From Paraflavisolibacter caeni (lineage in GTDB: Bacteria; Bacteroidota; Bacteroidia; Chitinophagales; Chitinophagaceae): a stretch of 64,000 nt of DNA. How positions within the stretch are numbered: the first letter of the stretch is position 1; the number at the start of each line of letters is the position of its first letter. A model generated the notes under the pieces. The model made no database searches, was not told the origin of the DNA, and saw only the letters and a list, made by a program, of their open reading frames with translations. Both the position numbers and the translations under genes were made by a program. The stretch lies in assembly GCF_025628885.1 (NCBI RefSeq), contig NZ_JAOTIF010000002.1, positions 434,001 through 498,000 of the forward strand. Reading direction: 5' to 3'. Positions 18,328 to 28,303 of this stretch are shown piece by piece.

Positions 18328-18900
18328 CTATTTCCTATTGTCAAATGCTTCTTGTCTGTTCGCAATTCCTAGATACTGAACCAACTCCCCGGGCTCCTTC
18401 AACACGGTGATCTGCTCATCAAGTTCCCCGTATAAAAATCCTTCCCGTGTCAGCAACTGTAAATGGTCCAGTAAATTATCATAAAAGCCCGCCGCATTTA
18501 GAATGAATACCTTTTTATCATGTAAGGAAAGCTGATTCCACGTCAATAGTTCAAAAAGCTCATCCAGGGTTCCGAACCCGCCCGGTAAAATCAGTGCGGC
18601 ATCGCACCATTCATACATAGTCCGTTTGCGCTGGTGCATATCCTCCACCACCAGCAGTTCGCTGATTTCATTGTGCTGGCTTTCCCATTCAATCAGTAAT
18701 TGCGGGATCACACCGCGTACCGTTCCTCCTCTTTCCATTATAGCGTCGGCAACGCTGCCCATCAAACCGTTCTTGCCACCACCATATATCATAGTAATAT
18801 GATGTGCTGCCATCAAAATACCAAGCTCCTTGGCCTGCTGAATGTACAAGGGATTATTACCCGCCTTCGACCCACAGAAAATCGCAAGAGATCCTATCAT
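18328..18900 (-). CDS. LOG family protein (cytokinin riboside 5'-monophosphate phosphoribohydrolase type)
   Basis: A 190-residue protein with a Rossmann-like fold. Diagnostic motifs: IFCGSKAG near the N-terminus, MIYGGGKNGLMGSVADAIM, and ALILPGGFGTLDELFELLTW, the PGGxGTxxE signature for nucleotide binding and catalysis. LOG enzymes split nucleoside 5'-monophosphates into base and ribose 5-phosphate; in bacteria outside plant hosts the physiological role is mostly nucleotide turnover. Complete length, isolated transcription unit. Confidence 0.92.
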   Translation of the reverse strand: MIGSLAIFCGSKAGNNPLYIQQAKELGILMAAHHITMIYGGGKNGLMGSVADAIMERGGTVRGVIPQLLIEWESQHNEISELLVVEDMHQRKRTMYEWCDAALILPGGFGTLDELFELLTWNQLSLHDKKVFILNAAGFYDNLLDHLQLLTREGFLYGELDEQITVLKEPGELVQYLGIANRQEAFDNRK

Positions 18901-19040
18901 AATTCAGAATTGCTGGTTAATAGATCAAAGTTTATGGTTTTTCTTTAACAATTTGTCACACCCCTAAATATCACAAAATCTTAATGTAAAAATCTCCTGC
19001 CCCCTGACCGCAAATGGCAGCAAATGACCGCTTTTGTCCA

Positions 19041-19304
19041 CTTCAACAGAATCCATCCTTCGTACCTTAAGTAGACCTGAAGCATACCATAAGTATACCT
19101 AAAGTAGGGCTAGCGTATTCCAACAGCAACCCTCCATGCCCTCTACTTACCCCATACATACTCCATGCAGACTGGATGCCTACTCCGTATCTAAGCCGTA
19201 CCATAGGCGTACTTTAGGTATACATCAGCCGTACTTAAGCCGAGGCTACTTCGACCATCCTTCGACCATCCTTCGACTATGGTTCGACTATGCTTCGATC
19301 TGAA
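19041..19304. repeat. Degenerate 11-bp periodic array (24 units)
   Basis: Read from 19041 in steps of 11, nearly every unit ends in or near TA/CA/AC and shares a loose core: TACCTTAAGTA (19063), GACCTGAAGCA (19074), TACCATAAGTA (19085), TACCTAAAGTA (19096), and so on. The right end is a near-perfect tandem repeat: TTCGACCATCC twice, TTCGACTATGG, TTCGACTATGC and a partial TTCGAT (19250-19299). The register never slips across the array. Eleven is not a multiple of three and the frame is not coding. Function unknown. Confidence 0.75.
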
Positions 19305-19423
19305 TGGAGCAAATGCTCATAAATAAGGGGAAAACAACCTATAGGCAGAACGCCCTGAACGGAGGCAATGGAGCTGCGCCTAAAGATACAAAACCAACCC
19401 CCACCTTCCAAGTTTTGCCCCCC

Positions 19424-19480
19424 AACTTCAAACTTCAAACTCCAAACACCAAATCTCTAAATTCCGAAATCCGAAATCCC
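19424..19480. repeat. 7-bp periodic C/A-rich tract
   Basis: Heptamers AACTTCA, AACTTCA, AACTCCA, AACACCA, AATCTCT, then AAATTCC, GAAATCC, GAAATCC. Purine-free C/T positions alternate with AA pairs. A very similar tract, on the other strand, occurs at 28304-28357 beside the second 11-bp array. Confidence 0.65.
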
Positions 19481-19697
19481 CAGCCCCGGTTCAGATCTGA
19501 ATACTCCCCTCTAAGCTTGATGCAAACTTGGAATGCAAGCAATGTGTAAAAGTTTGATAATTACTATGGCGGGATTAACCAGGCAAAACAAATTTTTTTA
19601 TCTTCAAAAATTCTGCTTCTTTGCGGACCCTGCCAGGTCTTAAAGACAGGGTAGGGGTATAAATCGGTACCGTACTTATATTGATAAATAACAATTT

Positions 19698-27851: not shown

Positions 27852-28022
27852 GCTGACAAATCCATTGCCAATAAGCCAGATAGAGACAAATTGTCTTAAA
27901 GTTTACTTAGTTTTTAAATGAGGAGGGGCGAGCAGGCACGTAATCTAAGGGAGATGGGGGAGTGTTTGAACCTGGATTAGGTAGGGGAGTGATGGGATCA
28001 GGAGAGGTCAAAAACTGTTTCG

Positions 28023-28253
28023 TGCTTCAGGTATGCTGTAAGTGTGCTTCAGGTATGCTTGAACTATACTGAAGGTATGGGTGGATAGATAAGGGGGAAA
28101 GTAGGGCATAGGTATATGGTAGATACGGGGTTGATACGGATTAGTATAGGAGTGGTCGAGGAGGATATAGTTAGGATGTACGGCTAATGTTTACTATAAC
28201 TCTACTATATGTTTACTATAACTTTACTGTAAGTTTTCTATAAGATTACTATA
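28023..28253. repeat. Second degenerate 11-bp periodic array (21 units)
   Basis: Read from 28023 in steps of 11, most units end in TA: TGCTTCAGGTA (28023), TGCTGTAAGTG, TGCTTCAGGTA (28045), TGCTTGAACTA, TACTGAAGGTA, and so on. The right end is A/T-rich: TGTTTACTATA (28188), ACTCTACTATA, TGTTTACTATA (28210), ACTTTACTGTA, AGTTTTCTATA, AGATTACTATA. The register is kept throughout. The complement of TGCTTCAGGTA differs by one base from GACCTGAAGCA in the array at 19041, so the two arrays belong to one family in opposite orientation. Confidence 0.75.
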
Positions 28254-28303
28254 AGGCACAATTGGTATGACGGATGGGGGAGGAGAAGATGATAGATGAT
28301 AGA

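Follow-up and report, generated by a model that had tools for sequence, protein, structure and literature searches.

An 11-bp intergenic array of Paraflavisolibacter caeni forms the interior of a short dispersed DNA repeat

An intergenic region of Paraflavisolibacter caeni can be read in steps of 11 bp over some twenty units, most of which differ from one another. What kind of sequence largely retains an 11-bp register though its units diverge? We analysed the 64,000-nucleotide stretch that contains the array (contig NZ_JAOTIF010000002.1, positions 434,001 to 498,000), termed the window here and numbered from its first base, together with the 7.0-Mb genome to which it belongs (G000; L-numbers denote fetched loci). 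A sequence-only reading had described 24 units in strict register from 19041 to 19304 and had suggested a phased platform for protein binding or bending, or the decayed product of 11-nt slippage. Autocorrelation against shuffled controls bore out the register: self-identity at lag 11 is 0.589 for 19041-19304, compared with 0.259 +/- 0.027 (maximum 0.352) in 2000 dinucleotide shuffles (z 12.1), which rules out chance or base composition as the source of the pattern. An excess is also present at lags 22, 33 and 44, and the lag-11 z is still 9.1 for 19041-19240, from which the near-identical right end has been removed. Ranked by lag 11, the window's 40 best stretches of 120 bp fall without exception inside this array or the second array described below. 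The unit count required correction, since 22 units (19063-19304) make up the array and the bases at 19041-19051 (CTTCAACAGAA) are upstream sequence. Similarly, of five right-end units reported as almost identical, four are close (TTCGACCATCC twice, TTCGACTATGG and TTCGACTATGC), while the fifth, TTCGATCTGAA, is alike at its start only. The 11-bp pattern is real, and it is the interior of a short dispersed DNA repeat without a recognised gene.

The element is composed, in order, of an optional upstream module, the left edge CATCCTTCG, 11-bp units, units of the form TTCGA(C/T)(C/T)ATCC, a conserved tail of 135 bp and a G-poor run with 7-bp repeats; all of these lie on the + strand of the window. 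The upstream module (TGACCGCAAATGGCAGCAAATGACCGCTTTTGTCC, 19005-19039) is present, judged by eye, whole or in part in 12 of the 25 copies that have a left edge, with unrelated sequence at this place in the rest. A script pattern recognised the left edge itself (19054-19062), exact or nearly so, in 25 of the 40 fetched copies; one further row that it picked out, L038, seems false, and L026, L030 and L053 carry near forms by eye. Copies without a recognised left edge have shorter or other left parts. Twenty of the 22 tandem units at 19063-19304 precede the first two units of the tail, and 13-20 units occupy the same place in 13 copies of uniform layout. A repeat search of 18890-19640 found inverted arms within the array, where a left arm of 46 nt (19066-19111) is 74% complementary to a right arm at 19194-19239, the two forming an imperfect inverted repeat.

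The tail, or core, of the element (19283-19417) is non-periodic beyond its first two units. Alignment A1 of the tail comprises 38 of the 40 copies at a mean column identity of 87% and omits the divergent L059 as well as L044, which runs into a contig end; alignment A2 comprises 29 copies at 86%, includes L059 and omits eleven others, mostly close to retained members. About 9-10 bases found in most copies are missing from the tail of the window copy. The G-poor, C/A-rich run with 7-bp repeats follows at 19418-19494, and the right limit of the element is not sharp. An 81-aa ORF (19304-19549) crosses the tail, but a coding origin was rejected because the frame is not preserved among copies, in which small indels break any reading frame across the tail. 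By a script criterion, 34 of the 40 copies have no ORF of at least 70 codons spanning the tail start and six have ORFs of 71-187 codons; the 81-aa ORF, which starts within the tail, is excluded from this count. No Rfam family matched the window at gathering score, the other Rfam matches being weak and at chance level, and no tRNA was found in the window.

The element is dispersed and intergenic, with at least 42 places in the genome. A search with the 264-base query gave at least 74 matches, 40 of 106 candidates having been scored. Forty places were fetched with their flanks and a query of 19250-19420 showed two more, which makes 42 the minimum. In their best pieces the copies are 68-93% identical. 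The genes that flank the 40 fetched copies, judged from ORFs in 800-bp flanks, occur in all four arrangements, and a promoter-linked role was rejected on account of this mixture.

Array lengths change mostly by whole units. Thirteen of 22 left-edge arrays have a length of 9 modulo 11. When four composite arrays with a second module are set aside (L033, L035, L056 and L060; remainders 8, 6, 6 and 2), the same 13 are found among 18 arrays (one of which, L038, is doubtful) and span 152-229 bp, or 13-20 units; the other five have remainders 8, 6, 0, 5 and 3. These five deviate by shifts of one base (L022) or three bases (L036) or through other left modules. One remainder shared by 13 of 18 arrays would have a probability of about 2e-9 if the copies were independent, but they are related. 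Of 246 pairwise gaps within the 13 uniform arrays, 189 measure 11, 22, 33 or 44 bases, a count that describes these arrays and gives no independent test, since they were picked by length remainder.

The units also show phase-specific base preferences, as a position-weight check proposed with the first reading confirmed. The information amounts to 5.9 bits in 102 different units of the 13 copies, compared with 0.73 +/- 0.06 bits in randomly rotated units; the 102 units were drawn from related copies and hence are not independent. Similarity between units in the same copies falls with distance, from 0.625 for neighbours through 0.518 and 0.463 to about 0.3 at ten units or more, where 0.26 is expected from base composition alone. 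Part of this decay comes from the switch from left-arm to right-arm units. Identical neighbouring units are present in 6 of the 13 copies. The decay with distance leads us to prefer unit-by-unit duplication with divergence over one binding site kept throughout the array.

We think it probable that the element is MITE-like: an intergenic repeat, apparently non-autonomous, that contains an 11-bp minisatellite. Copies would have spread in trans by means of an enzyme, or by recombination, and the minisatellite would grow and shrink through replication slippage or unequal exchange between adjacent units, processes that would preserve the 11-bp register without selection on register. The inverted arms could let a strand fold back, which may help slippage; no cellular role is required to explain the data. 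This explanation is favoured by the dispersed copies, the recurrent left edge, the conserved tail, the whole-unit length steps and the similarity of neighbouring units. Against it stand the low-complexity sequence that blurs the right end, the Y1_Tnp and RVT_1 searches described below, which gave no mobilising gene, and the failure to find terminal inverted repeats: neither the repeat search of 18890-19640 nor, for other copies, inspection by eye matched the left edge to the end of the tail. The element is short, non-coding, multi-copy and intergenic, as a MITE should be; since no terminal inverted repeats were found and it has no known parent transposon, "MITE-like" is a description rather than an assignment of membership. 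The slippage option of the sequence-only reading fits the variation, with its mostly whole-unit steps, occasional identical neighbours and decay with distance; what that reading missed is that the array belongs to a dispersed element with a conserved tail. If slippage is the only process at work, the many paralogous copies record the unit-by-unit growth of a minisatellite.

In the genus, the LOG-family gene and the sodium/solute transporter gene (both named by eye) that flank the array are adjacent and divergent. They stand 797 bp apart here, compared with 91-97 bp in 10 relatives (taking as ends the residues that align with the first codons) and 96-101 bp in G003, G004, G008, G013 and G015 (measured between match ends). 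The difference between 797 bp and the roughly 91-101 bp of 15 of 17 relatives argues that a block has been inserted. Host sequence at 19584-19613 (+ strand) resembles by eye the sequence upstream of the transporter in relatives, where it lies about 20-30 bp from the LOG start, compared with about 680 bp here. The block is a mosaic that carries a further 100 bp or so of unassigned sequence to each side of the element, which makes more than one event likely. The remaining two relatives have intermediate gaps, G001 of 178 bp and G012 of 235 bp, and these count against the explanation given above.

A query of the right end and tail (19250-19420) had no DNA match in 36 of 37 relatives and matched 27 bases in G012, taken as Cnuella takakiae. 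Absence from related genomes together with random unit composition had been named beforehand as an outcome that would count against the array, as had the lack of an excess at lag 11; absence from relatives largely holds at the DNA level, but the phase composition is non-random and the lag-11 excess is large. The G012 match belongs to a decayed copy that shares the unit words and has the start of the tail, and it lies just upstream of a gene similar in product (by eye) to the gene beside L059, the most divergent copy of the own genome; the genes on the opposite side differ. L059 and the C. takakiae locus (L118:8494-8700) probably share an old insertion on the left side, with other genes on the right. 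We infer that the family predates the split from C. takakiae and that most copies in the own genome are later. As C. takakiae, a member of Chitinophagaceae, is among the relatives, the bacteria G015, G019 and G022 with the differently spelled arrays described below are placed in this family. Exact tail words were absent from the named genomes scanned, a set that may not include the window's own genome.

Other arrays that step by 11 bp are present in the same genome and elsewhere. The second array of the window (28010-28270 on the - strand, with the array proper at 28023-28254) has a lag-11 z of 8.9 for 28020-28260 and represents a sister family built of different units, of the TTATAGTAAAC and CTGAAGCATAC kind. 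It ends in ACGAAACAG..TTTTG plus a C-rich run, an end much like that of the first family, and it too is dispersed: scoring 40 out of 76 candidates gave at least 42 matches within the own genome. The distance between RlmI and GrpE around this array is 623 in the own genome compared with 135-386 in 16 relatives, where the values are upper bounds because the first GrpE residues are unaligned in most. A third unit set, TTATAGAGACC or near forms of it, was observed in L038, L043, L048, L051, L078:7055-7161 and L090:9036-9132, fused with the other unit sets inside single arrays.

The sequence-only reading had suggested a search for other 11-bp arrays. A 400-kb sample of the own genome yielded 10 arrays above the threshold at lag 11, all non-coding by a script criterion, compared with 3 at lag 7 and none at lags 8-10 or 12-14. 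Non-coding lag-11 arrays were detected in 4 of 13 sampled genomes (G000, G015, G019 and G022): 4 in a 400-kb sample of G015, where 10 arrays were found at lag 7; 1 in a 100-kb sample and 2 in a 500-kb sample of G019; and, in 100 kb of G022, one of two lag-11 arrays. None was detected in 200 kb of G012, which has one coding array, or in 100 kb each of G008, G003, G005, G014, G016, G011, G018 and G020. The G015 element, with units TGTACCTCTTC and TGTACCTAATC, has at least 35 strong matches among at least 41 (40 of 144 candidates scored) and was detected in 1 of 18 genomes of the genus. Its tail resembles our tail in plan, with a small hairpin, AAAGTGAAGAG and then CYTAAAGRTACA; such a tail is found in 14 of 30 fetched G015 loci (L212-L241) plus one place in the 400-kb sample, and alignment A3 includes 14 of these 15. 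For the G019 element, with units AGTACTATCTC, scoring 40 out of 71 candidates gave at least 9 matches. When named genomes were scanned for the right-end word, seven stretches emerged: three in Anaerolineae MAGs, one in C. takakiae, and three in two Bacteroidales MAGs, of which RUG377 has two. The RUG377 stretches (L290:2807-2896 and L293:231-319) are apparently intergenic DNA foldbacks (fold z -6.3 and -7.5) whose arms consist of 11-bp units in tandem, TTCGACCATCC and its reverse complement. Short tandem runs of TTCGACYATCC occur in the Anaerolineae loci L289, L291 and L292 and in the Bacteroidales locus L288, the run of L291 adjoining a TTCGACAAGCTCAGG-type word.

Slippage alone leaves unexplained why differently spelled arrays elsewhere have the same 11-bp step, and the recurrence of an identical step under other spellings is, with a register mostly retained by units that diverge to near background, a sharp oddity of these arrays. 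Three unit sets in the own genome, others in G015, G019 and G022, and the Bacteroidales MAG foldbacks raise the idea of a sequence-independent 11-bp rule, by which shared, undescribed machinery would work on DNA or RNA eleven bases at a time, making or reading it; candidates would be a binding protein that polymerises and an enzyme copying an 11-nt unit. Some units of G000 (GCCGTACTTAA), G015 (TGTACCTCTTC) and G019 (AGTACTATCTC) have TAC at one common phase by eye, which could reflect kinship. Because the shared TAC may mean kinship and the sampling is small, we hold such a rule to be a tentative idea of low probability. If the step does reflect a protein or enzyme, the arrays are a ready-made bait for it.

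An unlikely alternative is that a protein would bind once per 11 bp and polymerise along the array, as ParR does on parC, with selection acting on the register. The parC site of plasmid R1 has 11-bp repeats bound by ParR and thus resembles our array in having tandem 11-bp repeats outside genes (PMC9426499). It is a plasmid centromere with a partner protein (PMC9426499), in contrast to the dozens of chromosomal copies with divergent units described here. The phase-specific preferences, the TAC found at one phase in three unit sets and the further arrays of 11-bp units in related genera would agree with such a platform. One site repeated in phase, as in parC, is not what we observe, however, since similarity declines to about 0.3 with distance, near the background set by composition. 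Moreover, the own-genome arrays of TTATAGAGACC and TTATAGTAAAC do not carry the common TAC motif, one- and three-base shifts occur, copies stand in every gene arrangement, and the block is absent from relatives at the LOG-transporter gene pair.

It is less likely still that the array is transcribed into a long imperfect hairpin, with the tail as a conserved RNA domain. The predicted fold of 18950-19400 as RNA is better than that of shuffles (z -3.2). For 21 copies, those that passed the script's pattern, the mean z on the two strands is -2.7 and -2.3 relative to dinucleotide shuffles, and -2.1 and -1.9 when the order of units is permuted instead; on the + strand 20 of 21 copies beat the shuffle mean and all 21 beat the permutation mean. 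With its roughly 11 bp per turn, A-form RNA would suit such a hairpin. A small hairpin is predicted at the corresponding place in the tails of G000 and G015, with different arm sequences; 5 of 14 G015 stems pair fully, but the other 9 have at least one mismatch, and the G015 arms fall into two sequence classes. Against a structured RNA, RNAalifold found no covarying pair on A1, and pair counts on A2 gave one double change, not above the controls. Left and right arms match no better within one copy than between copies (15 copies, p 0.31), which rules out co-evolving hairpin arms. The second array of the window folds no better than shuffles (z -0.77), and the Rfam matches were at chance level, as noted above. 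Folding of 19053-19195 as DNA gave a z of 0.25; this piece ends before the right arm and so is no test of a foldback.

REP and BIME palindromes have a Y1/RAYT partner. The element is likewise intergenic, partly palindromic and multi-copy, and CCTTCGAC-type words recur in other bacteria, which would fit palindromes spread by a RAYT (Y1 transposase). REPs share with it an intergenic, palindromic and dispersed nature, but they measure 20-40 bp (PMC3733652), far shorter than the element. Searched at E 0.001, the own genome had no match to the Y1_Tnp family (PF01797), although the same search was positive in 5 of 14 control genomes, and spread by a RAYT is accordingly very improbable. Reverse transcriptase offers no better source: the sole RVT_1 match of the own genome, L211 (G000:C19:11621-12244), looks group II intron-like by eye, and the 3.6-kb locus around it contains neither an 11-bp array nor a tail, so RT-driven spread was rejected. 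Among the two families searched, Y1_Tnp and RVT_1, we thus found no candidate for a mobilising enzyme. Neither the plasmid nor the phage collection gave a match at E 1e-5, and a plasmid or phage origin was rejected. One viral contig carries the 21-base word of the right end.

Intrinsic curvature was predicted with a wedge table. Across 13 copies it lies slightly above that of shuffles (mean z 1.4), and L025 and L039 exceed all 60 shuffles; the curvature ratio of the 13 copies is 1.08-1.21, compared with 1.85 for a phased A-tract control. B-DNA has about 10.5 bp per turn, so that sites spaced at 11.0 bp drift by about a full turn over 20 units and leave one face of the relaxed helix. A bending platform of phased flexible or curved steps is hardly credible with such ratios, such drift and a z of -0.36 for the window copy itself. 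The platform of the sequence-only reading, whether for binding or bending, therefore fares poorly, distant units sharing little beyond composition. The models support curvature and a conserved RNA structure weakly.

Foldback transposons, such as Drosophila FB, have inverted arms of short tandem repeats. Inverted arms of tandem subunits are a point of likeness, clear in the Bacteroidales loci L290 and L293, but the arms alone are seen here, with no transposase or terminal structure. Among open-licence PMC full texts we found no paper on the element or on 11-bp intergenic arrays in Chitinophagaceae. The nearest published system that we found is the BrickBuilt MITE of Porphyromonas gingivalis, with 19 dispersed intergenic copies, a minisatellite between leader and tail, and no internal transposase (PMC4596501). 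Its units are of 23 nt with 0-11% mismatches within an element, and its inverted-repeat ends resemble those of IS5-family elements (PMC4596501). Both elements are dispersed and intergenic repeats of Bacteroidota with a variable number of imperfect units and predicted long stem-loops, and both follow a leader-minisatellite-tail plan, the "leader" here being the 9-base edge plus the optional module (PMC4596501). They differ in that the units here are of 11 nt and fall to near background along one array, and in that no terminal inverted repeats were found. With the present family, the MITE-like repeats of Bacteroidota that carry minisatellites gain a high-copy, lineage-specific element. Intergenic runs with a 7-base period (AACTCCA, CACCATT and similar) were also seen, at 19424-19479 and in the right flanks of many copies, and such runs outnumber 11-bp arrays in each of the samples of G012, G015, G014, G016, G011, G018 and G020.
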